The notes below the pieces were generated by a model. The model was not told the DNA's origin and did not search any database. It saw only the letters and a list, made by a program, of their open reading frames with translations. Below, piece after piece: positions 8,088-20,522 of a stretch of 41,640 nt of DNA. How positions within the stretch are numbered: the stretch's first letter is position 1; each line of letters opens with the position of its first letter. The stretch spans positions 1-41,640 of the forward strand of contig CAIWAN010000045.1 in NCBI GenBank assembly GCA_903910705.1. The letters are read 5' to 3'. Source of the stretch: an uncultured Candidatus Marinamargulisbacteria bacterium (GTDB taxonomy: Bacteria; Margulisbacteria; Riflemargulisbacteria; GWF2-35-9). The position numbers were made by a program, and so were the translations under genes.

Positions 8088-9158
8088 ATGCTTAAAAAAT
8101 TCCTCCATAATCAATCCCGTTCATTGGGGCTTGAACCCGGTGCCCCTGTTTATACCGGCGAAAAGTCGGCGGTCAAGGTAGCCGTCTCCGCGGTACGATT
8201 TAATGAAGCGACCTTTGAAGAGAAACCCAATCTTACTTTTGATGAGGCGCTCGGTCTTATTGAGGAAGGCTCTTTGACGTGGATCAATGTCGATGGATTG
8301 TCCGACCCAGCTATTACCGAAGCCCTTGGCACCAAAATGTCGATCCATCCTCTGGTGGCTGAAGATATCTTGAATACCTCGCAACGTCCCAAATTTGAGG
8401 CCTTTGATGGCTATTTCTTTGTGGTCTTGAAAATGCTTTATTATGGGGCGAACAAGCGAGAGTTTAACGTCGAACAGGTTAGTCTGATCGTTAAAGACAA
8501 TGTCATCTTTTCGTTTCAAGAGGATATCGAGGGGGATGTCTTTGACCCCCTTCGTGAACGTATCCGTAGTAATAAGGCGGGCGCTCGAAAGATTACGACC
8601 GACTATTTGGCCTATCTTCTTATTGATGCGATCGTGGATAACTATTTCATTATTATCGAAGAGGTGGGTGAAAAGATCGAAGCGCTTGAAATGATGGTCA
8701 TCAATAAGCCAAGCCCTAAAGCCATGGCAAAGATGCATTATTTGAAGCAAAAGATGATCTTTTTGCGTAAATCCATTTGGCCCTTGCGTGAAGTCGTCAG
8801 CGGAATGCTTCGAGATGAGGGGGGGCAAATTAACAATAACACCAAGATCTTTTTGCGTGATGCTTATGACCATACGATCCAAGTCATCGAATTGATCGAG
8901 ACCTGTCGGGATATGGTCTCGGGGCTACTCGACATTTATCTTTCCAGTAACAGCAACAAGCTGAATGAAATCATGAAAGTGCTAACCATGATCTCGACAA
9001 TATTTATTCCTTTGAGCTTTATGGCTAGTTTTTACGGAATGAACTTTCACTATATGCCCGAACTTTCCTCGAAATGGGGCTACCCAGCCCTTATTTCGGT
9101 CATGGTAACCGTTGCGATCTCAATGCTTTTTTACTTTCGCCGCCGTCGTTGGTTGTAG
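8088..9158 (+). CDS. corA: CorA family Mg2+/Co2+ transporter
   Basis: C-terminal FYGMNFHYMPEL (GMN motif) and two terminal TM helices. Confidence 0.95.
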   Translation: MLKKFLHNQSRSLGLEPGAPVYTGEKSAVKVAVSAVRFNEATFEEKPNLTFDEALGLIEEGSLTWINVDGLSDPAITEALGTKMSIHPLVAEDILNTSQRPKFEAFDGYFFVVLKMLYYGANKREFNVEQVSLIVKDNVIFSFQEDIEGDVFDPLRERIRSNKAGARKITTDYLAYLLIDAIVDNYFIIIEEVGEKIEALEMMVINKPSPKAMAKMHYLKQKMIFLRKSIWPLREVVSGMLRDEGGQINNNTKIFLRDAYDHTIQVIELIETCRDMVSGLLDIYLSSNSNKLNEIMKVLTMISTIFIPLSFMASFYGMNFHYMPELSSKWGYPALISVMVTVAISMLFYFRRRRWL

Positions 9159-9245
9159 CGCAGCTATAGCATCTTGCCTGAAATCGCCTCTTCCCCTACA
9201 CTATGAAGGGGTTTTCCCAATTTTTTATTCGGAAGGAGCAGGAGT

Positions 9246-11687
9246 ATGAAACGTTTTAATGTGATGTTGGCCACCGTTCTTGGGTTGGTCATGACGAGCT
9301 CGACATGGGCAGGTGAGGCTAATTTGGTCTTGCCGGATCTCAATACGGGTAGTTTCTTTGGTTTGACAGGGAAGAGCTTTTTGGTTTGGGGGATCTTGAT
9401 CTGTGTTGTGGGTTTTCTGTTTGGGATCGTGCAATTTCTTCAGTTAAAAAATATGAAGGTTCACAAGTCGATGTCCGATATTTCGGCCCTCATTTATGAA
9501 ACCTGTAAAACGTACCTTATTACACAAGGCAAGCTGTTGATTTGGCTTGAATTGCTGATCGGTTCGATCATTTTTGCTTACTTCTACTTCATCGAGGCGC
9601 TCTCTCTTTCCAAAGTGGGGATCATTCTTGCGTTCAGTGTGGTAGGGATTCTGGGTTCGGTTGGCGTGGCGTGGTTTGGTATTCGTATTAACACGTATGC
9701 CAATAGCCGCACGGCGTTTGCTTCGCTAAAAGGCAAGGGATATAGCTGCTATGCGATCCCTCTCAAGGCGGGTATGTCGATCGGCACTTTGCTAATTAGT
9801 ACCGAGCTTATTATTATGTTGACCATTCTGCTTTTTCTTCCTAAAGAATTAGCGGGTCCTTGTTTTATCGGATTTGCCATTGGGGAATCGTTGGGTGCGT
9901 CAGTTCTTCGTATTGCGGGCGGTATTTTTACAAAGATCGCTGATATCGGTTCCGATCTCATGAAGATCGTTTTTAAGGTTAAAGAAGATGATGCTCGGAA
10001 TCCAGGGGTTATTGCGGATTGTACTGGTGACAATGCGGGCGACAGCGTTGGTCCTTCGGCCGACGGTTTCGAAACGTATGGGGTTACGGGTGTTGCGCTG
10101 ATTACGTTTATTATGTTGGCGATCAAGAATCCTGAGATCCAAGTACAACTCCTTGTTTGGATTTTTGCTATGCGCGTTGCCATGATCTTGACTTCGGTAG
10201 GCAGTTATTTTATTAATGACCTCTTTATTGCTCGTCCTCGTTTTGGCAACAAAGTTAAGTTCAACTACGAGATCCCTTTAACGACGTTGGTTATTCTGAC
10301 TTCGGTCGTTTCGGTGGGCGTTACCTTCCTGATCTCTCGACTTCTTGTTCCCAGTATCGCGGGCAACCTCGATCTTTGGTGGCAGCTTTCTTTGATCATT
10401 TCTTGCGGAACAGCAGCGGGCGCGCTTATTCCAGAAGCGGTCAAAGTGTTCACGTCGACTAATTCAAAGCACGTTCGTGAAGTCGTTACCTCCTCGAAAG
10501 AGGGTGGCGCTTCGTTGAATGTGTTGTCTGGCTTGGTTGCGGGAAATTTTTCTGCCTATTGGTTAGGCTTAATGATCGTGGGCTTGATGACGGTTGCCTA
10601 TTATGTTTCAGGTCTTGGCTTAGCCGGTGTGCTTGCCGTCGGAACGACGCCTTCAATTGGTGGAACGATGGCGGCTGTTTTTGCTTTTGGTCTTGTCGCG
10701 TTTGGATTCCTTGGCATGGGTCCTGTGACCATCGCGGTTGATTCTTATGGCCCTGTTACCGATAATGCTCAGTCCATTTATGAGCTTTCTCTTATCGAAA
10801 CCCTTCCCAACATTAAGAACGACCTAAAGAAGGATTATGGGTTTGATACCGATTTCGAATTGGCAAAAGAACTCCTTGAAGAGAACGACGGCGCAGGGAA
10901 TACCTTTAAGGCTACCGCTAAGCCGGTTCTTATCGGTACGGCTGTTGTCGGTTCAACCACGATGATTTTCTCGATTATTATGGAACTCACGGATAGTTTG
11001 GCGAATACCCCCGAGGTGTTAAAGTTGTCCCTCACGCATGCTCCGTTCTTGCTCGGGCTTGTCACGGGTGGCGCGATGATCTATTGGTTCACCGGTGCGT
11101 CGATGCAAGCTGTTGTGGCAGGTGCGTATAAGGCCGTTGAATATATTAAGAAAACCATGAAACTCGATGGCGAGCAGACCGCTTCGACAGAAGACAGCAA
11201 AAAAGTCGTTGAGATCTGTACCCTTTATGCCCAAAAAGGCATGTGGAATATTTTCTTGGCGGTGTTTTTTGGTACCTTGGCGTTTGCCTTTATGGAAGCC
11301 TACTTCTTTATTGGCTACTTGATTTCCATCGCCCTTTTTGGTCTGTATCAAGCCGTTTTTATGGCCAATGCCGGCGGAGCTTGGGATAACGCCAAAAAAG
11401 TTGTTGAGACAGAGCTTCGCGCAAAAAATACCCCCCTTCACGAGGCGGTTATTGTGGGTGATACAGTGGGGGATCCTTTCAAAGATACCAGTTCTGTGGC
11501 GATGAATCCGATCATCAAATTTACAACGCTTTTTGGATTGTTGGCGGTATCGATGGCGGTCGGCATGCGCCATGCAGGGAATGGTGATCTGGCGACCGGT
11601 TTAGCCGTTGGATTCCTCCTTATTTCCATGTTCTTTGTGTGGAGAAGCTTCTACGCGATGCGTATTGAGGAAGCCGTTATCGCTTAG
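9246..11687 (+). CDS. hppA: Membrane-bound (ion-pumping) pyrophosphatase, divergent type
   Basis: About 16 TM; EDDARNPGVIADCTGDNAGDSVGPSADGFETYGVTGVAL; DSYGPVTDNAQSIYELS; GNTFKAT; GDTVGDPFKDTSSVAMNPIIKF; SD ggaaggagcaggag before ATG. Confidence 0.95.
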   Translation: MKRFNVMLATVLGLVMTSSTWAGEANLVLPDLNTGSFFGLTGKSFLVWGILICVVGFLFGIVQFLQLKNMKVHKSMSDISALIYETCKTYLITQGKLLIWLELLIGSIIFAYFYFIEALSLSKVGIILAFSVVGILGSVGVAWFGIRINTYANSRTAFASLKGKGYSCYAIPLKAGMSIGTLLISTELIIMLTILLFLPKELAGPCFIGFAIGESLGASVLRIAGGIFTKIADIGSDLMKIVFKVKEDDARNPGVIADCTGDNAGDSVGPSADGFETYGVTGVALITFIMLAIKNPEIQVQLLVWIFAMRVAMILTSVGSYFINDLFIARPRFGNKVKFNYEIPLTTLVILTSVVSVGVTFLISRLLVPSIAGNLDLWWQLSLIISCGTAAGALIPEAVKVFTSTNSKHVREVVTSSKEGGASLNVLSGLVAGNFSAYWLGLMIVGLMTVAYYVSGLGLAGVLAVGTTPSIGGTMAAVFAFGLVAFGFLGMGPVTIAVDSYGPVTDNAQSIYELSLIETLPNIKNDLKKDYGFDTDFELAKELLEENDGAGNTFKATAKPVLIGTAVVGSTTMIFSIIMELTDSLANTPEVLKLSLTHAPFLLGLVTGGAMIYWFTGASMQAVVAGAYKAVEYIKKTMKLDGEQTASTEDSKKVVEICTLYAQKGMWNIFLAVFFGTLAFAFMEAYFFIGYLISIALFGLYQAVFMANAGGAWDNAKKVVETELRAKNTPLHEAVIVGDTVGDPFKDTSSVAMNPIIKFTTLFGLLAVSMAVGMRHAGNGDLATGLAVGFLLISMFFVWRSFYAMRIEEAVIA

Positions 11688-11711
11688 TCTTTAGCCGCTC
11701 AGTTGCTTTAC

Positions 11712-11750
11712 AAGGCCAACGTCATCGGATAGAATGACGTTGGCCTTTTT
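11712..11750 (+). terminator. Strong intrinsic terminator-like hairpin between hppA and the hydrogenase operon
   Basis: Perfect 14-bp stem AAGGCCAACGTCAT / ATGACGTTGGCCTT, 8-nt loop CGGATAGA, followed by TTT (TTTTT run). Confidence 0.85.
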
Positions 11751-11754
11751 AATT

Positions 11755-13650
11755 ATGATACAAAACTTAGTTCTCTTTCTCATCGGTTTTCCTGCTCTGG
11801 CTGCGCTTATTTTAGCGGGCGTTCCAAACAACAACTTTCGGAATCGCTTAGTCTGGGTCTTTGGCCTCATTATTTTAGTGGTTTCCGTTGTCTTGGTTGT
11901 TGGGTTTGGCTCGATCAGTTCAGAGATGCTTTCTTTTCACAGTAAAGCTCTCGAAAAAGTCATGTTCTACGGTGAATGGGTGATGTCGCTCTTGATCTTG
12001 GTCCTTTCGATAAAGCACAAGAAATTAGCCCCCCTGTTCTTGGTTGTTATTCAAACATCCTTGCTAACGTGGTTTGAGCTGGGTTATGGTCATCAGCTTG
12101 AGGCCGCTAACAATCTTTTTGTCGACAAACTTTCCTTGGTTATGGCGCTTATTATTGGTGTCATTGGTTCCTTGATCTGTATCTACGCCGTTGGCTATAT
12201 GAAAGAATTCCACGAAAAACAACACCCCGAGATCAAAGATCGTCGTGCCCTTTTTTTCTTTATTCTGTTCTTTTTCTTGTCGGCCATGTTCGGCATTGTT
12301 TTCTCTAATAATTTGATGTGGCTCTTTTTCTTCTGGGAAGTCACAACGCTTAGCTCATTTCTTCTTATTGGCTATAAGCAGAACGAAGAATCCATAAATA
12401 ATGCGTTCCGAGCTGTCTTTATGAATTTGTTCGGCGGCGTTTTCTTTGCAATGGCGATCATTTACCTGTTTCTGACAACCAATACGATCGAACTTAATCA
12501 GATGCTTGGTTTGGGTGGACTGGTCATGTTGCCCGTGGTCTTTCTCAGCATCGCAGGGATGACCAAGGCGGCTCAAATGCCTTTTTCGAGTTGGCTATTA
12601 GGGGCGATGGTGGCACCGACCCCTGTTTCAGCGCTGCTTCATTCAAGTACGATGGTCAAAGCGGGTGTTTATTTGCTGATCCGGGTTGCGCCACTACTTG
12701 GCGGAACGTTGGCGGGTCTATTGGTTGCGTGTGTGGGGGGTGTGACTTTTATCATTACGAGCTTTATCGCGATCTCTCAAAGCGATGCCAAGAAAGTCTT
12801 AGCTTATTCCACGATCGCTAATCTGGGTCTTATCGTGATGTGTTCCGGTATCGGAACCCCTGCCGCTATCTGGGCAGCGATTCTTCTCGTGATCTTTCAT
12901 GCTATCGCGAAAGGCCTTCTCTTCCTTAGTGTCGGTGTTGTTGAGCACAAACTGCATAGTCGTGATATCGAATCGATGGATAATCTCATCATCAAGATGC
13001 CGCGCTTAGCTTGGATGCTTTTGGTTGGCATGGCGGGTATGTTCTTGGCACCGTTTGGTATGCTCATCAGTAAATGGGCTGTGTTAAAGGCTTTGGTTGA
13101 TGCCAACCCGGGGCTAACGGTTGTTTTGATCTATGGGAGTGCTGCAACGTTGTTCTTCTGGGTAAAATGGATGGGAAAAATACTGGCTGTTGTACAGCCT
13201 GAAAAGACCGACGAAACCGGTATTAGTCGTAGCGAGTGGACAGCCCTTTATGCTCTCGTGACGGCAACTATCGCCGTTTGTTTAACTTTCCCGCTTATTT
13301 CTAGATTGATGATCGAGCCTTTTGTGTTTGGTTCTTCGACCGCAACGACCATTCTAACTCGTGGAAATAGTCTGATCATGATCATCATGATGGGGTTTGT
13401 GATTCTCTTTCGATTTAGTCTTCCGAAAAAAGATGAAGGGGAGCGTATCGTCGAAACGTATCTCTCCGGCTTAAATGTCGATCAACGCAATGCTTACTCG
13501 GCTCCATTGGGTGCAACCAAATCCTTTATCTCAAAAAATTATTATCTTTCCAAATATTTTGGAGAGAAGAATCTCTCTAGCATTGGTGTCGCGACTTCAT
13601 GGCTGATTGTTATGTTATTAATCGGGAGCTCATTGCCATGGTTAGTATAA
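11755..13650 (+). CDS. echA: Ech-type hydrogenase antiporter-like membrane subunit (NuoL/ND5 family, EchA-like)
   Basis: Proton_antipo_M-like core (FFFWEVTTLSSFLLIGY, SIAGMTKAAQMPFSSWLLGAMVAPTPVSALLHSSTMVKAGVYLLIR). Start set to 11755 because the ORF-track ATG at 11734 lies inside the terminator hairpin. Confidence 0.9.
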   Translation: MIQNLVLFLIGFPALAALILAGVPNNNFRNRLVWVFGLIILVVSVVLVVGFGSISSEMLSFHSKALEKVMFYGEWVMSLLILVLSIKHKKLAPLFLVVIQTSLLTWFELGYGHQLEAANNLFVDKLSLVMALIIGVIGSLICIYAVGYMKEFHEKQHPEIKDRRALFFFILFFFLSAMFGIVFSNNLMWLFFFWEVTTLSSFLLIGYKQNEESINNAFRAVFMNLFGGVFFAMAIIYLFLTTNTIELNQMLGLGGLVMLPVVFLSIAGMTKAAQMPFSSWLLGAMVAPTPVSALLHSSTMVKAGVYLLIRVAPLLGGTLAGLLVACVGGVTFIITSFIAISQSDAKKVLAYSTIANLGLIVMCSGIGTPAAIWAAILLVIFHAIAKGLLFLSVGVVEHKLHSRDIESMDNLIIKMPRLAWMLLVGMAGMFLAPFGMLISKWAVLKALVDANPGLTVVLIYGSAATLFFWVKWMGKILAVVQPEKTDETGISRSEWTALYALVTATIAVCLTFPLISRLMIEPFVFGSSTATTILTRGNSLIMIIMMGFVILFRFSLPKKDEGERIVETYLSGLNVDQRNAYSAPLGATKSFISKNYYLSKYFGEKNLSSIGVATSWLIVMLLIGSSLPWLV

Positions 13651-14489
13651 TAATGGGGTTGTTATATTTGGTGTTGGGGCCTCTTTTTGGTGGGCTCGTG
13701 ACGGGGCTTGATCGTCGAATTTCGGCGCGTATGCAAGGACGTTTTGGCCCCCCTATCCTTCAACCGTTTTATGATGTTTTAAAGTTATTTGAAAAAGAAC
13801 AGATCGTCGTTCGTCGTTCGCAAAATGTGTATGTTTATTTCTATCTCCTTTTTATTGTTTTTACAGGGGTTCTTTTCTTCATGGGTGAAGATCTGTTGCT
13901 GGTCATATTCTCTTTAACCTTAGCGGCTATCTTCTTTGTTTTGGCAGGATATAAAGGCGGCTCGCCGTTTAGTATAATCGGTGCTGAACGTGAACTGCTT
14001 CAGATGATGGCCTACGAACCCATGGTATTGATGATGGCCGTCGGAATGTACATGGCAACCAAGAGTTTTTATGTGGGCGATATCGTCACCAGTCCTGCGA
14101 TGCCGATCATGCTGCTACCGGGTATTTTTATCGGATTAACCTATGTCTTGACCATCAAACTGCGCAAGTCTCCATTTGATCTTTCAACGTCCCATCACGG
14201 GCATCAAGAGCTCGTCAAAGGTATTACTACTGAGTATTCAGGGCCGGCTCTTGCTCTGATTGAGATCGCTCATTTTTATGAAGTTCCTTTTCTCGTTGGG
14301 TTTGTTTTTCTTTTCTTTGGTTCGCATTGGCTTTTGGGTTTGTTAGTATGTGCGGCGGTTTATTTCTTGGAAATATTGATCGATAACACCTTCGCTCGAA
14401 CAAAGTGGCAATTTATGGTCGCCGCCTCATGGGTTGTGGCGGCTATCTTTGGGTTTGGTAATATTATTATTCTGAGTTTATTGGGGTAA
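13638..14489 (+). CDS. echB: Ech-type hydrogenase membrane subunit (NuoH/EchB-like)
   Basis: RRISARMQGRFGPPILQPFYDVLKLFEKE, GAERELLQMMAYEPM, KLRKSPFDLSTSHHGHQELVKG. Start at 13638 (MVSIIMGLLYL) preferred over 13599. Confidence 0.92.
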   Translation: MVSIIMGLLYLVLGPLFGGLVTGLDRRISARMQGRFGPPILQPFYDVLKLFEKEQIVVRRSQNVYVYFYLLFIVFTGVLFFMGEDLLLVIFSLTLAAIFFVLAGYKGGSPFSIIGAERELLQMMAYEPMVLMMAVGMYMATKSFYVGDIVTSPAMPIMLLPGIFIGLTYVLTIKLRKSPFDLSTSHHGHQELVKGITTEYSGPALALIEIAHFYEVPFLVGFVFLFFGSHWLLGLLVCAAVYFLEILIDNTFARTKWQFMVAASWVVAAIFGFGNIIILSLLG

Positions 14490-14491
14490 AC

Positions 14492-14935
14492 ATGACTTAT
14501 TTAGCAAAATCACCGTGGATTATTCATTATGATGCAACGAGCTGTAATGGTTGCGATATCGAAGTCTTAGCGTGCCTTACACCCATGTATGATGTCGAAC
14601 GATTTGGTATTATCAATACCGGCAATCCTAAACATGCGGATATCTTTTTGATCACGGGATCGGTCAATGAGCAAAACGTTAAAGTCGTTGAAAATATTTA
14701 TAATCAAATGCCCAACCCCAAGGTTGTCGTTGCGATTGGTATCTGTGCCACCTCCGGTGGTATCTTTAGAGAGTGTTATAACGTCCTTGGTGGCGTCGAC
14801 AAAGTGATACCGGTTGATGTCTATGTTCCGGGATGCGCGGTTCGACCTGAGGCGATAATCGATGGCGTTGTAAAAGCGATCGGGGTCCTAGAAGAAAAGC
14901 ATACCCAAATGAAAAAGGGAGCGGCTAAGTCATGA
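14492..14935 (+). CDS. echC: [NiFe] hydrogenase small subunit (NuoB/EchC-like), [4Fe-4S] ligands present
   Basis: SCNGCDIEVLA, IGICATSGGIF, VPGCAVRPEAI. Confidence 0.95.
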   Translation: MTYLAKSPWIIHYDATSCNGCDIEVLACLTPMYDVERFGIINTGNPKHADIFLITGSVNEQNVKVVENIYNQMPNPKVVVAIGICATSGGIFRECYNVLGGVDKVIPVDVYVPGCAVRPEAIIDGVVKAIGVLEEKHTQMKKGAAKS

Positions 14936-15348
14936 TAGAAGAACAAAAGCTTATCGAAATAATCCCTTCCGAGCTGGTTGCCAAAGTACGGGATATGTTT
15001 GTGGAACAGTATCGTTTGGTTCAGATCGGTTGTACCAAGCTGCCCGATCGTATTGAGATCAATTATTCCTTTGATAAAAACTACCAGTTCATTAATTATC
15101 GACTCATCCTTGCGAATGATAAGGTAGAGGTTCCAAGTGTTAGCAGTGTGTATTGGAATGCCTTGTTTTATGAGAACGAGATCCATGATCTATTTGGACT
15201 CAATATTGTCGGTATCGTGCTCGATTTTAAAGGGACGTTCTATGAAACGAAGGAAAAATATGCCTTTGCGACGTGCCCCCCCCCAATTGAGCCTGTTATT
15301 AAGACGACGCCTGTCGTAAATATTAAAGAAAAGGGAAAACCCCAATGA
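14932..15348 (+). CDS. echD: Ech hydrogenase NuoC-like subunit (EchD-like)
   Basis: SSVYWNALFYENEIHDLFGLNIVG resembles the NuoC ERE.DLFG motif; start overlaps echC stop, stop overlaps echE start. Confidence 0.85.
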   Translation: MIEEQKLIEIIPSELVAKVRDMFVEQYRLVQIGCTKLPDRIEINYSFDKNYQFINYRLILANDKVEVPSVSSVYWNALFYENEIHDLFGLNIVGIVLDFKGTFYETKEKYAFATCPPPIEPVIKTTPVVNIKEKGKPQ

Positions 15349-16424
15349 GCAATAGAACGATCATTCCATTCGGTCCGCAACACCCTGTTCTCCCTGAACC
15401 GATCCACCTCGATCTTGTCATGGAAGACGAGTTGGTTGTCGAAGCTATTCCACGTATTGGTTGGGTTCATCGCGGCCTTGAAAAGCTCGTAGAGAAAAAA
15501 GATTTCCTTGAGATGACCTATGTAGCTGAACGCATTTGTGGTATTTGCAGCTTTATTCACGGGTTGACGTATTGTCATGGAATTGAGCAAATCATGAATA
15601 TCGAGGTGCCGATCAGGGCGCATTTTTTAAGAACGCTATGGAGTGAGCTGAGTCGTATTCATAGTCACTTATTATGGTTAGGTCTTGTGGCTGATGCGTT
15701 TGGATTTGAGAGCTTATTTATGCACAGTTGGCGAATCCGCGAGAAGGTCCTTGATATTATTGAAGCAACAACTGGTGGACGTGTTATTTTTGGTTCGGCC
15801 AAAGTGGGTGGAACGCGTCGCGATATCGACAATGAGATGTTGAAGCGGATCATCGCCCAAGTGACGGAGATCGAAAAAGAAATGAAAGAAATCAGTCAGA
15901 CATTTCTTAACGATTACAGTGTTCAACAGCGTCTAAAGGGTGTTGGGATCTTGTCAAAAGCGGATGCAAACATGCTGGGTGCAGTGGGGCCCATGTTACG
16001 TGCGAGCGGGATCAATCAAGATATGCGGAAGTTAAATTATGCGGCTTATGGGCATATCGACTGGGAGCCCGTCATGGCTCAAGACGGCGATTGTTTCGCT
16101 CGGGTGGAGGTGCGAGTAGGCGAACTTTTTCAAGCAACCGATATGATCCGACAAGTCATCGAAAAAATGCCTGAAGGCCCTGTAGATGTTAAAGTGACGG
16201 GTTCCCCCAATGGTGAATTCTTCGCTCGAACTGAACAACCTCGCGGCGAAGTGATCTATTATCTTAAGGGGAATGGTAGCAAAAACTTAGAGCGTATGCG
16301 TGTTAGAACCCCCACCTTCGCTAACATTCCGGCTATTACCAAGATATTGCCGGGTATCCAGTTAGCCGATGTTCCGATGATGTTGTTAACGATCGATCCG
16401 TGTATCAGTTGTACAGAAAGGTAA
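15345..16424 (+). CDS. echE: [NiFe] hydrogenase large subunit, group 4 (NuoD/EchE-like), all four NiFe Cys present
   Basis: L1 motif RICGICSFIH and L2 motif DPCISCTER at the very C-terminus. Confidence 0.96.
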   Translation: MSNRTIIPFGPQHPVLPEPIHLDLVMEDELVVEAIPRIGWVHRGLEKLVEKKDFLEMTYVAERICGICSFIHGLTYCHGIEQIMNIEVPIRAHFLRTLWSELSRIHSHLLWLGLVADAFGFESLFMHSWRIREKVLDIIEATTGGRVIFGSAKVGGTRRDIDNEMLKRIIAQVTEIEKEMKEISQTFLNDYSVQQRLKGVGILSKADANMLGAVGPMLRASGINQDMRKLNYAAYGHIDWEPVMAQDGDCFARVEVRVGELFQATDMIRQVIEKMPEGPVDVKVTGSPNGEFFARTEQPRGEVIYYLKGNGSKNLERMRVRTPTFANIPAITKILPGIQLADVPMMLLTIDPCISCTER

Positions 16425-16757
16425 ATGATGCCAAGATTCTTTACATTAAGCAAAATGGTTCTGAAGAGCTTGTTCTCAAAGCCTGCAACGTATATGTACC
16501 CCCTATTAACGCGTGAGCCGATGGTAGGAAGTCGTGGCAGCATCGTTAATCATGTTGATCAATGTAGCTATTGTACGCTTTGTCAAAAGAAATGCCCAAC
16601 GGATGCGATCGTTGTCGATCGCGAGAAAAAGACATGGGCCATTGATTCTATGAGATGTATTACCTGTAATGCTTGTGTCGATGTATGCCCCAAAAGCTGC
16701 CTTGAAATGCTCACAACCTACTCAAGTTCAAAGACTGCGGCCGAACTAAGTCGATAA
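16425..16757 (+). CDS. echF: 2x[4Fe-4S] ferredoxin-like hydrogenase subunit (EchF-like)
   Basis: CSYCTLCQKKCP and CITCNACVDVCPKSC. Confidence 0.93.
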   Translation: MMPRFFTLSKMVLKSLFSKPATYMYPLLTREPMVGSRGSIVNHVDQCSYCTLCQKKCPTDAIVVDREKKTWAIDSMRCITCNACVDVCPKSCLEMLTTYSSSKTAAELSR

Positions 16758-16785
16758 AAAACCCCACCTTACGGCGGGGTTTTTT
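16758..16785. terminator. Intrinsic terminator between convergent hydrogenase operon and Lys-rich peptide gene
   Basis: aaaACCCCACC-ttac-GGCGGGGTtttttaa, one A/C mismatch in stem. Confidence 0.8.
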
Positions 16786-16808
16786 AATCAAATTTACAAG
16801 AACAGAAG

Positions 16809-17024
16809 TTACTTTGTTGCCTCAGGTTTAACGTCAGTTTTAACCTCTTTAGCCGCTTTAACAGCCTTTGCCTTTTTGGTTTTAACAACTTTAACCGCTT
16901 TAACTTCTTTTGCAGCCTCAACCTTAACAGCAGCTTTATCAGCAGCCTTAGCTGGAGTAACTTCAGCAGCGAAAACCGTAGCAGCCATCATTAGAACGAG
17001 TGCCATTGCGAGTGTCTTTTTCAT
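16809..17024 (-). CDS. Small secreted Lys/Ala/Val-rich low-complexity protein (71 aa from the ATG)
   Basis: Signal peptide MKKTLAMALVLMMAATVFAAE then AKAADKAAVKVEAAKEVKAVKVVKTKKAKAVKAAKEVKTDVKPEATK; ggggagg SD sits right for the ATG at 17024, whereas the track's GTG at 17036 overlaps the SD. Confidence 0.8.
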   Translation of the reverse strand: MKKTLAMALVLMMAATVFAAEVTPAKAADKAAVKVEAAKEVKAVKVVKTKKAKAVKAAKEVKTDVKPEATK

Positions 17025-17060
17025 AATATATTTCACCTCCCCTTAAAATGTTCTGGTTTA

Positions 17061-17096
17061 ATTTTAGCAAGGTCAAGATGAAAGGAAGATGAATCG
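17061..17096 (-). promoter_or_regulatory. Putative activator-dependent promoter: two 11-bp direct repeats (17075-17096) upstream of -10 TAAAAT (17061-17066, minus strand)
   Basis: Plus strand AAGATGAAAGG AAGATGAATCG; repeats replace the -35 region, as in PhoB/OmpR-family class II promoters. Confidence 0.5.
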
Positions 17097-17114
17097 AATA
17101 TTAAAAAACGTTAA

Positions 17115-18602
17115 TCAAACAGGGAAGTCCAGATCAAAAGTAGTTCCTTCTCCGAATTTACTTTTAACGTTGATTTTGCCATGATGGAGCTCCATAATTC
17201 GTTTACACATACTCAGACCCAATCCAAACCCCATCCCATGTCGAGAATTGTCTGCCTGAAAGAAGCGATCAAATATTCGGCTTAAATGATGACTGAGAAT
17301 ACCGATTCCCTGATCTTCAATAGAGAAGTGCAATCGATTTTGATTGTACATTGCGGAGAGTGTGATGGTTCCTCCCTTTGATGAATATTTTATCGCGTTA
17401 TCGATAAGATTAGAAAAAAGACGTTCGAGATAGGTCGGTTCACCATCAATCATACAGTTTTCTTTAAGGGTTGATGTTAAAGTTAACTGTTTTTCTTTAG
17501 CAATTCGTTCAAATCGGTTCAGGATTTGATTAATAAGAGCAGTCAAATCAACCGACATCAGACTTATCTCGTTATGGGCGTTATCCAGTCTTGCAAGTAG
17601 TAGCAGCGATTCAATAATGTGTCCTAGCGTGTCAATTTCTTCTAGGGTACTTGATAGTGCAAGTTGGTATTCATCAATCGATCGCCGTTTCTTTAGCAGG
17701 ACATCTAGTTCTCCCTTTATGATGGTGAGGGGTGTGCGGAGTTCGTGAGAGGCATCCGAAATAAACTGGGTTTGGACAATAAAGGCATGGGATGCCTCTG
17801 CCAAGAGCTTGTTAAACGTCTCGGCAAGGTGTTGGAGTTCGTCGTGGGTTTGAGGAACGGGAATATGTGTGCTTAGACGGTTAGGATCCATGGTTCGAAT
17901 CGTTTTGGTCATGTTTCGAACGGGTCGAAGGGTTCGTCCTGCCAAGAAAGCCCCCATAATCCCTGTTAGTAAGACGATCGTTGGAATGAAAATGAGCAGC
18001 AACCATTGAAGGTTTGCTGCCTCAAAATGAACGCGATCAAGGGTGCAGGAGATTTGAACGATATACCCCAGATGATGTTGTTCTTCTACGCCCACCGTCA
18101 ATTGCCTCATATGAATGGAGGGTTGATGGGCGGTTTTTAAGGTTGCTGTGTTGTAGAACCAATTTCCTCGATCGATGGATGCTCGTGTGGTTTTTGGTAG
18201 ATGCATAAGCCCTTCATACGCTTTTGATGAGGCGATATGCCGTCCTTTTGCATCAAAGATCTGAACCAGCAAATTGGGTAAATGAGGATCTCGAAGTTGA
18301 GCTGGCTCTGGGCGTTTGATAACCCATTTCTGCGCAATATGAACGAAATTCAGGTTGTTTCTTATAGTATATACTTGATAGGGGCGGCCGTCTTTGATCG
18401 CTTCCAGCCGTTCAGCATCCCAATAGGTGTTGATCGAGTCCGCAATCGCCTCAGCTTTGTAAAGAAGTTGATTGTCTATTTGCTCCATTAATAGATTTTT
18501 ATATACATTGAAGATGAGCAGGCTAAATAAAGAAAGGGTAACGAATAGTATAGCCATATACCAGAGACTAATCCGAAAACGAATGGATTTAAGACTTAGC
18601 AC
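17115..18602 (-). CDS. Sensor histidine kinase (2 TM, HAMP, HisKA, HATPase)
   Basis: DASHELRTPLTIIKGELDVL, LIDNAIKYSSKG, IEDQGIGI, GMGFGLGLSMCKRIMELHHG. Confidence 0.95.
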   Translation of the reverse strand: MLSLKSIRFRISLWYMAILFVTLSLFSLLIFNVYKNLLMEQIDNQLLYKAEAIADSINTYWDAERLEAIKDGRPYQVYTIRNNLNFVHIAQKWVIKRPEPAQLRDPHLPNLLVQIFDAKGRHIASSKAYEGLMHLPKTTRASIDRGNWFYNTATLKTAHQPSIHMRQLTVGVEEQHHLGYIVQISCTLDRVHFEAANLQWLLLIFIPTIVLLTGIMGAFLAGRTLRPVRNMTKTIRTMDPNRLSTHIPVPQTHDELQHLAETFNKLLAEASHAFIVQTQFISDASHELRTPLTIIKGELDVLLKKRRSIDEYQLALSSTLEEIDTLGHIIESLLLLARLDNAHNEISLMSVDLTALINQILNRFERIAKEKQLTLTSTLKENCMIDGEPTYLERLFSNLIDNAIKYSSKGGTITLSAMYNQNRLHFSIEDQGIGILSHHLSRIFDRFFQADNSRHGMGFGLGLSMCKRIMELHHGKINVKSKFGEGTTFDLDFPV

Positions 18603-19261
18603 TGGCTTCGTAAACGATATCCCCGCCCACGAATGGTTTCTAAATAGGCAGGTGAGGTTAGTTTTTTGCGAAGATGGGTCAGGGTTACATCGATGACATT
18701 TGTATTGGGCTCAAAGTGCAAGTCCCAGACATGCTCGGCTAGCTCCGTTCGGGTAATCACCTCGTTGGGTTTTCGCATAAAATAGGCAAAGACACTGAAT
18801 TCTTTGCTAGATAGATCGATAATATGATCATTTTCCGTGGCGACATGTCGGAGTAGATCCATATGAAAGGGGCCAACTTGAAGATGGTTTGGACTGACTT
18901 GAGCGGGTGTTCGAAGCTGGGATCTTATTCTGGCCAAGAGTTCTTCGAAGGCAAATGGCTTTGTTAGATAGTCGTTTGCCCCGCTATCAAGTCCAAGAAC
19001 ACGGTCATGGATACTATCCTTTGCGGTTAGCATGATAATGGGGACAGCCCTTCCGTGCTTCCGTATCTCTTTGCAAACATTGACCCCATCAAGTTTGGGC
19101 AACATAAGATCAAGCAATATAAGGTCAAAATCATGACTATCGGAAAGGAATCGCCCTTCTTCGCCATCAAACGCCGGTGTCACGGCGTACCCAGCTTCTT
19201 TTAAGCCACGGCAAATGAATCGCGAGATCTTGGGTTCATCCTCCACAACGAGAATGTGCAT
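18596..19261 (-). CDS. OmpR/PhoB-family response regulator
   Basis: ILVVEDEPKISRFI, LILLDLMLPKLDG, MLTAKD, TKPFAFEELLARI; C-terminal winged helix IDLSSKEFSVFAYFMRKPNEVITRTELAEHVW..VIDVTLTHLRKKL. Confidence 0.96.
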   Translation of the reverse strand: MHILVVEDEPKISRFICRGLKEAGYAVTPAFDGEEGRFLSDSHDFDLILLDLMLPKLDGVNVCKEIRKHGRAVPIIMLTAKDSIHDRVLGLDSGANDYLTKPFAFEELLARIRSQLRTPAQVSPNHLQVGPFHMDLLRHVATENDHIIDLSSKEFSVFAYFMRKPNEVITRTELAEHVWDLHFEPNTNVIDVTLTHLRKKLTSPAYLETIRGRGYRLRSQC

Positions 19262-19270
19262 GGCTCTATT

Positions 19271-20461
19271 TTAGCCCCACGGCAAGATTTCAACAAATAG
19301 GGTTTTAAGGTATTGTCCTTCGGGAAAAGCGAGTCGCTGCGTATGGCAGCTTGATTGTCCGAGTCGCTTGACGATGCGAATTTGTTTGTTGGCTTGTGTC
19401 GCGGCTGTTCGAAGTATCTTCTCGAAATCAGTGGCGGAAATTCGACCGGAACAAGAGGAGGTCAAGAGCCTGCCGCCAACCGGTAAATGTTCAAGACATT
19501 TTTTGTTGATCCGGATATAGGCTTCCGTTGCCACTTTGGCTTGGGCTGCTGTTTTAGCAAAAGCCGGTGGGTCACAAATAATGAGATCATAGGTTTTCTT
19601 CGCTGCCTTATCGATAAACTTAAACGCATCGGTCGCAATAAATTCGTGTTCAGTGAGTCTCAGTTTGTTTAGGGTGAAATGATGCTGCGCTCGGTTCAAC
19701 GCCTCTTGGCTAATATCAACGGAGGTGACCTGTTTTGCGCCTCCAATGGCAGCAGCCACACTGAATGCGCCCGTGTATGAAAATAAGTTCAAGACCTCTT
19801 TCTGGTTAGACTGTTCACCAATAAGCATGCGAGCCTCTCGTTGATCAAGGAAGAAGCCTGTTTTTTGACCTTTCATCACATCAGCAGAAAAAGAAAGGTT
19901 GTTTTCTAAGAAGCGTGCTTCGTCGGAATGGCCTTGATGGACAAGGATGGGGAAAGTCGAAAGACCTTCTTCTTTGCGAATGCCGACGTCTGATCGTTCG
20001 ATGATGTTAGCCCCACCTATGTCTTTGAGGATGTTGATGAGCATGTCTTTCAGTCGTTCCATGCCAGCGGTATGGATCTGAAAGACGGTGGTATCTCCAA
20101 ATTGATCGATGATAAGTCCCGGAAGGTTGTCGCTCTCGGCATACACCCAACGAAAACCGGTCGTCTGATCCGGTAGACGACGAAGCTTGGCTTCTTTTAG
20201 ATCGAGCAGTCTCGTCTTTAAAAAGTTGAGGTCGATCGTGTCGTTGGGTTTTAGAGAGAGCATTCTTACTCGGATTGATGATTCGTCATTATAGAAGCCG
20301 ACTCCAATGGGTTGGTTGTCAGCATTACTGATGTTGACGAGGCTGCCATTTGGAATGCTTCGACTGGGTGATTCGACACCATTTGAGAATATCCAAGGAT
20401 GCCCGGCTAAAACAGGGATATCTCGTCGGGGAAGGATTTTCACGATAGGGTAGCTGTTCAT
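19271..20461 (-). CDS. rlmI: Class I SAM-dependent rRNA (cytosine-C5) methyltransferase, RlmI-like
   Basis: N-terminal PUA-like GHPWIFSNGVES; VLNLFSYTGAFSVAAAIGGAKQVTSVDIS; DLIICDPPAFAK; SSCSGRI. Start at 20461 (MNSYPIVKILPRRD) preferred. Confidence 0.88.
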   Translation of the reverse strand: MNSYPIVKILPRRDIPVLAGHPWIFSNGVESPSRSIPNGSLVNISNADNQPIGVGFYNDESSIRVRMLSLKPNDTIDLNFLKTRLLDLKEAKLRRLPDQTTGFRWVYAESDNLPGLIIDQFGDTTVFQIHTAGMERLKDMLINILKDIGGANIIERSDVGIRKEEGLSTFPILVHQGHSDEARFLENNLSFSADVMKGQKTGFFLDQREARMLIGEQSNQKEVLNLFSYTGAFSVAAAIGGAKQVTSVDISQEALNRAQHHFTLNKLRLTEHEFIATDAFKFIDKAAKKTYDLIICDPPAFAKTAAQAKVATEAYIRINKKCLEHLPVGGRLLTSSCSGRISATDFEKILRTAATQANKQIRIVKRLGQSSCHTQRLAFPEGQYLKTLFVEILPWG

Positions 20462-20471
20462 GATGAGGGTT

Positions 20472-20500
20472 ACCCTACCGGACTGACAAATCTTTGTCAA
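20472..20500 (-). promoter_or_regulatory. Putative rlmI promoter: TTGACA - 17 nt - TAGGGT
   Basis: Perfect -35 on minus strand (20495-20500), weak -10 (20472-20477). Confidence 0.4.
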
Positions 20501-20522
20501 ATCATTCATAAATGAGTATCAT
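20494..20522 (+). promoter_or_regulatory. Putative pyk promoter: TTGTCA - 17 nt - TATCAT, start site predicted at or next to the ATG
   Basis: Hexamers at 20494-20499 and 20517-20522; ATG at 20529. Confidence 0.6.

Follow-up and report, generated by a model that had tools for sequence, protein, structure and literature searches.

An exported Lys/Ala-rich peptide gene with a triple direct-repeat promoter behind a CusR/CopR-like two-component pair in Candidatus Marinamargulisbacteria

The window, a stretch of 41,640 nucleotides from the genome of an uncultured Ca. Marinamargulisbacteria bacterium (G000), contains a gene for a small exported Lys/Ala-rich peptide directly behind an OmpR-family response regulator-histidine kinase (RR-HK) pair, and the peptide promoter carries a triple direct repeat that is a putative site of the regulator. 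We compared it with four relatives of the same family (G001-G004), and genome-wide statements refer to pattern and protein searches. The RR, the HK, the triple repeat, a strong Shine-Dalgarno sequence and an exported K/A/E/V peptide were found in the same order in four of the five family genomes (G000-G003), an arrangement conserved across three genera. Our best explanation, a tentative one that we put somewhat short of even probability, is that the peptide, switched on by the adjacent pair, is a disordered polycation made in abundance, which acts under stress as a shield or chaperone for the envelope. We infer binding and activation by the window RR, as well as the abundance and disorder of the peptide; the protective function and the stimulus are guesses.

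Peptide gene and promoter

The peptide gene (16809-17024, minus strand; stop codon 16809-16811) starts, according to our reading of both strands, at the ATG 17024-17022 and not at the upstream GTG of the listed ORF (16809-17036, minus strand). This ATG is located about 8 nt past a near-perfect Shine-Dalgarno sequence (GGGGAGGTGA; 17033-17042, minus strand), and the GTG was rejected because it sits inside the ribosome-binding site. The product comprises 71 residues, MKKTLAMALVLMMAATVFA, and begins with what looks by eye like a typical Sec signal sequence (residues 1-19, cleavage between TVFA and AEV). The mature peptide of 52 residues consists of K15, A14, V10, E5, T4, P2 and D2, with no other residue, and has a net charge of +8 and a calculated pI of 9.9. 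The original prediction of a signal peptide plus about 50 residues of almost only K, A, V, E and T was right on the export signal and the Lys/Ala-rich composition, and is corrected here for length and for the presence of P and D. Since His, Cys and Met are absent from the mature peptide, proton buffering or metal chelation is unlikely. The peptide had no family match in Pfam or NCBIfam. Between the gene and a convergent ferredoxin-like gene (16425-16757) we found a bidirectional hairpin that resembles an intrinsic terminator (16758-16790; fold -24.4 kcal/mol, z -6.5). We regard the peptide gene as real and conserved; it is under-annotated, although it belongs to a familiar kind.

The same convergent side of the window (8088-16757) contains an operon for a NuoL/H/B/C/D/I-like membrane complex; its gene for the large subunit is similar to NuoD/FpoD and to group 4 hydrogenases. 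In G002 (L142, 17947-19659), the counterpart of window gene 9246-11687 is itself convergent with the peptide gene.

The triple direct repeat TTAAT-N6-TTCAT-N6-TTCAT (17078-17104, minus strand) has an 11-bp period, with half-sites at 17104-17100 (TTAAT), 17093-17089 (TTCAT) and 17082-17078 (TTCAT). The last half-site is separated by 11 nt from a -10 element, TAAAAT (17061-17066, minus strand), which is extended by a TGC before it. Two 11-bp direct repeats had been predicted before TAAAAT; both were real, and the promoter-distal third half-site (17104-17100) had been overlooked. The tandem-repeat class II promoters of the OmpR/PhoB family have direct repeats with a period of about 10-11 bp shortly before the -10, as here, which supports the proposed layout in which the repeats replace the -35. 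On the minus strand, a scan for sigma-70 promoters gave no site, as expected where the promoter has no -35.

No other site in the window came near the score of the triple repeat, and none appeared in 30 dinucleotide-shuffled versions of the window, even at a lowered score. The genome search suggested with the original prediction recovered the triple repeat plus -10 once in G000, before the peptide gene. The exact pattern (three TTMAT, 10-11 nt, TANNNT) was present once each in G000, G001 and G003, each time upstream of the peptide gene, and the reversed control pattern occurred once over all five genomes combined. The two-half-site form with at most one mismatch (12 matches in the window versus 6.8 expected) is little above chance and by itself weak evidence. 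Searches for the triple with one mismatch returned 10 to 38 matches per genome, so many that no regulon could be named from them. Further exact triples in G001 (contig C74), G003 (C86) and G004 (C1, C23) had no matching promoter-gene layout on reading and were discarded.

The two-component pair and its conservation

As predicted, an OmpR-family RR-HK operon (17115-19261) adjoins the peptide gene. The RR (18596-19261, minus strand), the proposed activator of the peptide promoter, contains Response_reg and Trans_reg_C domains, both above the Pfam cut-off. Its gene overlaps by 7 nt with that of the HK (17115-18602, minus strand), for which we identified HAMP, HisKA and HATPase domains with Pfam and an extracytoplasmic PAS-like sensor from a model and a fold search. 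Upstream of the RR, at a distance of 9 nt, there is an RlmI-like 23S rRNA methyltransferase gene (19271-20509, minus strand).

By sequence, the window RR is assigned to the CusR/CopR-like subfamily of the OmpR/PhoB family. Against the cztR_silR_copR model (TIGR01387, cut-off 279.2) it scored 219.6, and the RRs of G003, G004 and G002 scored 285.6, 283.8 and 277.9, respectively. In a tree of 62 RRs, it grouped with its four family counterparts (support 100/99) and stood apart both from the phylum's PhoB-type RRs (99/98) and from the PhoB-like RR of G000. The latter is encoded on contig C29, adjoins pstS and scored 269.9 bits against the PhoB model (TIGR02154, cut-off 296.2), for which the window RR reached 183.4 bits; the score of the window RR with the PmrA model was 165.6 (cut-off 330). 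The regulator is neither PhoB nor RstA: the RR falls outside the PhoB clades and below the PhoB cut-off. The half-site is TTMAT, versus TACA for RstA (PMC4117788). The PhoB-like RR gene, which lies upstream of pstS, is preceded by GTGAC-N6-GTCAT-N6-GTCAC-N10-TATACT (L096, 4502-4544), a box close to the classical pho box.

The HK scored 268.6 bits against the NCBIfam cztS_silS_copS model, below its cut-off of 292.55, and its closest solved structure by sequence was HprS. A model of its first 270 residues, built from six sequences (mean pLDDT 79), resembled the extracytoplasmic PAS-like domain of WalK and, to a lesser degree, that of CusS; TM-scores were modest, and only the fold class is taken from this match. 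No His, Met or Cys was conserved in the sensor among the five orthologues, and the G003 sensor had no His or Cys at all, so metal sensing is not supported. The net charge of the sensor segment was 0 to +4, that is, not acidic.

The order of rlmI-like gene, RR, HK, box and K/A peptide was intact in G001 and G002; in G003, RR, HK, box and peptide were present and the contig ends beyond the RR. Only one close locus was present in the genome collection, that of the same-genus MAG, G001, whose peptide orthologue is 89% identical to the window peptide. This was also the only copy found confidently by sequence search with the window peptide, which missed the peptides of G002 and G003 (85 and 129 aa); we located those by position. 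With the G003 peptide as query, G002 was recovered at E 9e-5 and G000 was not found. The G002 and G003 peptides share with the window peptide the cleavage region (FA before and AE after the site), the composition and the GGAGGTGA ribosome-binding site, a Shine-Dalgarno core that is kept in G001 as well. The mature peptides of the window and its relatives carried a net charge of +8 to +13 and no aromatic residues, and varied freely in sequence and in length (52-108 aa). Such a pattern would be expected under selection for composition and not for fold, and points to bulk charge. Low-complexity K/A sequence can arise easily, which makes homology of the peptides between genera hard to prove from their sequences.

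The box of G002 (CTAAT-TTAAT-TTAAT) has one base changed from the exact pattern, and that of G004 is TTAAT-TTCAT-TTAAG plus one more TTAAT upstream. Between G000 and G001, half-sites were identical at 15 out of 15 positions and spacers at 12 out of 23 (Fisher p 0.002). Mean pairwise identity over the five genomes was 87% for half-sites versus 44% for spacers, figures that are partly built in because these sequences also served to define the box; independent support comes from its genome-wide uniqueness and its syntenic position. Loss of the repeat with a conserved peptide, the outcome named beforehand as contrary to the original prediction, did not occur, as the repeat was present in all four peptide-bearing genomes. 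Conservation across three genera thus supports a predicted link between the peptide promoter and the adjacent two-component system. The adjacent RR is the most likely binder of the predicted site, because box and RR-HK travel together and PhoB, the other regulator with a recognisable box, uses a different half-site; another OmpR-family regulator of G000 could use this putative site.

G004 keeps the RR-HK pair and the box, followed by a gene for a 145-aa protein that is unrelated to the peptide, has one apparent membrane segment and gave no Pfam match. The peptide is thus not an obligatory output of the pair. Also in G004 (contig C70; L141, 9128-9340, minus strand), a lone ATP-synthase c-subunit-like gene (PF00137) is located directly behind another OmpR-type RR-HK pair, preceded by TTAAT-N6-CTCAT-N6-TTAAT and with a cation/proton antiporter-like gene nearby. 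Behind RR homologues in other phyla (G078, G093, G083 and G087) we found neither box nor peptide.

In many genomes of the phylum, a PhoB-type RR-HK pair is followed by TTAAY-N6-TTCAT-N6-TTAAY, 10 nt before ATAAT. The genes behind these repeats encode PstS (L110, L120), a Na/Pi transporter (L105), DUF2490-like proteins (L103, L107, L114) or porin-like proteins (L089, L101, L119, L124, L132). Tandem-repeat promoters right after the kinase gene are therefore common in the phylum and not peptide-specific, which makes the promoter less surprising, yet supports its reading as a regulator site. Porin-like exported proteins were observed behind PhoB-type pairs at L097, L104 and L127 in addition to the five loci above; five of these proteins were scanned without a Pfam match, and they are possibly phosphate porins of a new family. 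In those of L097 and L127 the signal sequence is followed by a Lys/Ala/Pro-rich stretch; that the K/A peptide is a remnant of such a Lys-rich N-terminus is a speculation based on low-complexity likeness.

Proposed function and alternatives

According to our proposal, the CusR/CopR-like pair would sense an envelope condition through the PAS-like domain outside the inner membrane, and the phosphorylated RR would bind the triple repeat head-to-tail and, as a class II activator, bring in RNA polymerase at this promoter, which has no -35. The output would be a short, strongly translated mRNA for a single exported peptide. As a disordered periplasmic polycation acting by bulk charge, the peptide may, like other small stress-induced periplasmic proteins, coat or bridge anionic envelope polymers, or keep proteins soluble. 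Since Omp85 is encoded in the window genome, we expect the cell to have an outer membrane and a periplasm. Tandem sites are bound by OmpR-family regulators, and promoters whose -35 is poor are where class II activators operate (PMC4117788, PMC3973317, PMC7380067), a pattern that the window layout fits.

A feedback role is the main rival, although we consider it unlikely: the exported cation would bind the extracytoplasmic sensor of the kinase, or the membrane nearby, and tune signalling, as CpxP tunes CpxA and MgrB tunes PhoQ. The position of the gene directly behind the kinase, the sole exact box plus -10 in the genome and the different small protein at the same place in G004 agree with it, since small feedback proteins vary in that manner; however, a polycation would find no obvious place to dock on a sensor that is not acidic, a ribosome-binding site of such strength suggests production in bulk, and a sequence this free to change speaks against specific contact with a protein. 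A different arrangement, doubtful in our view but with some weight, is that the promoter behind the kinase is a conserved output socket that exchanges unrelated small envelope genes, with the K/A peptide as a new polycation family selected for composition. Its cases would be the K/A peptide in four genomes and, in G004, the 145-aa protein and, behind the second pair, the c-subunit-like gene. The persistence of box and pair while the third gene changes is the most interesting remainder of our analysis.

Other readings concern the stimulus or the gene itself. A heavy-metal response, with the pair sensing copper, silver or zinc like CusS/CopS and the peptide protecting against the metal, is improbable: the G003 and G004 RRs pass the cztR_silR_copR cut-off, HprS and CusS are among the matches of the kinase and PrsQ provides a precedent, but neither sensor (no kept His, Met or Cys) nor mature peptide has the residues for it, and no metal exporter was recognised beside the pair. 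We give no better chance to an Asr-like acid-shock or phosphate-starvation protein under a PhoB- or RstA-like regulator. Similar composition, export and an 11-bp direct-repeat promoter favour it, as do the PhoB-type pairs of related phylum genomes with a similar triple repeat before pstS or a Na/Pi transporter, and RstA controls asr by way of TACA sites in tandem (PMC4117788). The RR lies outside the PhoB clades, though, far below the PhoB cut-off (183 bits versus 296), and the genome has its own PhoB-like RR beside pstS with a GTGAC/GTCAT/GTCAC box; membership of the gene in the Pho regulon was dropped after the RR tree and the finding of this separate PhoB. The acid-stress protectant of the original prediction received no specific support, as the mature peptide has no His. 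A functionless chance reading frame transcribed by read-through from the kinase gene would suit the low-complexity sequence and the lack of a database family, and is very improbable given a signal sequence, Shine-Dalgarno, promoter box and position kept across three genera and a terminator behind the gene.

The polycation under control of the adjacent pair remains our preferred reading. In an uncultivated lineage, the locus joins regulator, box and target in a set that can be tested, and position and promoter revealed it where sequence search fails. It also allows a clean comparison of conserved control versus changing effector. If the peptide works by bulk charge, it would be an independently evolved case of two-component-induced disordered periplasmic polycations.

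Comparison with known systems

The PhoB-type boxes of the same phylum are alike in their triple 11-bp repeat directly behind an RR-HK pair, with 10 nt to the -10, but belong to RRs of another clade, and the PhoB-type half-sites of this family are GTMAY versus TTMAT here. Asr of enterobacteria is, as our peptide, a small exported Lys/Ala-rich protein. Its control by an OmpR-family regulator, RstA, with tandem sites (PMC4117788) is like the control proposed here; Asr differs in half-site (TACA versus TTMAT), in regulator subfamily and in that no His is found here. No Pfam family was above cut-off for the four peptides and no Asr match appeared up to E 10 (assuming that the Asr model is in that Pfam copy), so the likeness proposed earlier does not extend beyond composition and would not indicate membership. 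The PmrA (BasR) box, CTTAAG-N5-NTTAAT (PMC3973317), shares the 11-bp period, and the half-sites of G002 (CTTAAT, TTTAAT) and G003 (three TTTAAT) read like those of PmrA; our box has three half-sites, however, with TTCAT variants in G000 and G001, and the RR is far below the PmrA cut-off.

In AgrRS-PrsQ2 of Cupriavidus metallidurans, where PrsQ2 is one of the CopQ-like small periplasmic proteins, AgrR has a core box built as an inverted repeat (ATTACA-N4) to which direct half-sites are added, whereas the window box has direct repeats only. The window peptide, which has no metal-binding residues, is likened to PrsQ2 by description. Both systems combine an OmpR-family pair (for silver resistance in C. 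metallidurans) with a small exported protein as its strong target, a role predicted for the window peptide, and with a class II type promoter that has no good -35. AgrR is a class II activator that drives prsQ2; silver resistance requires the product, a small protein predicted to be periplasmic (PMC7380067), a precedent that supports the envelope-peptide reading.
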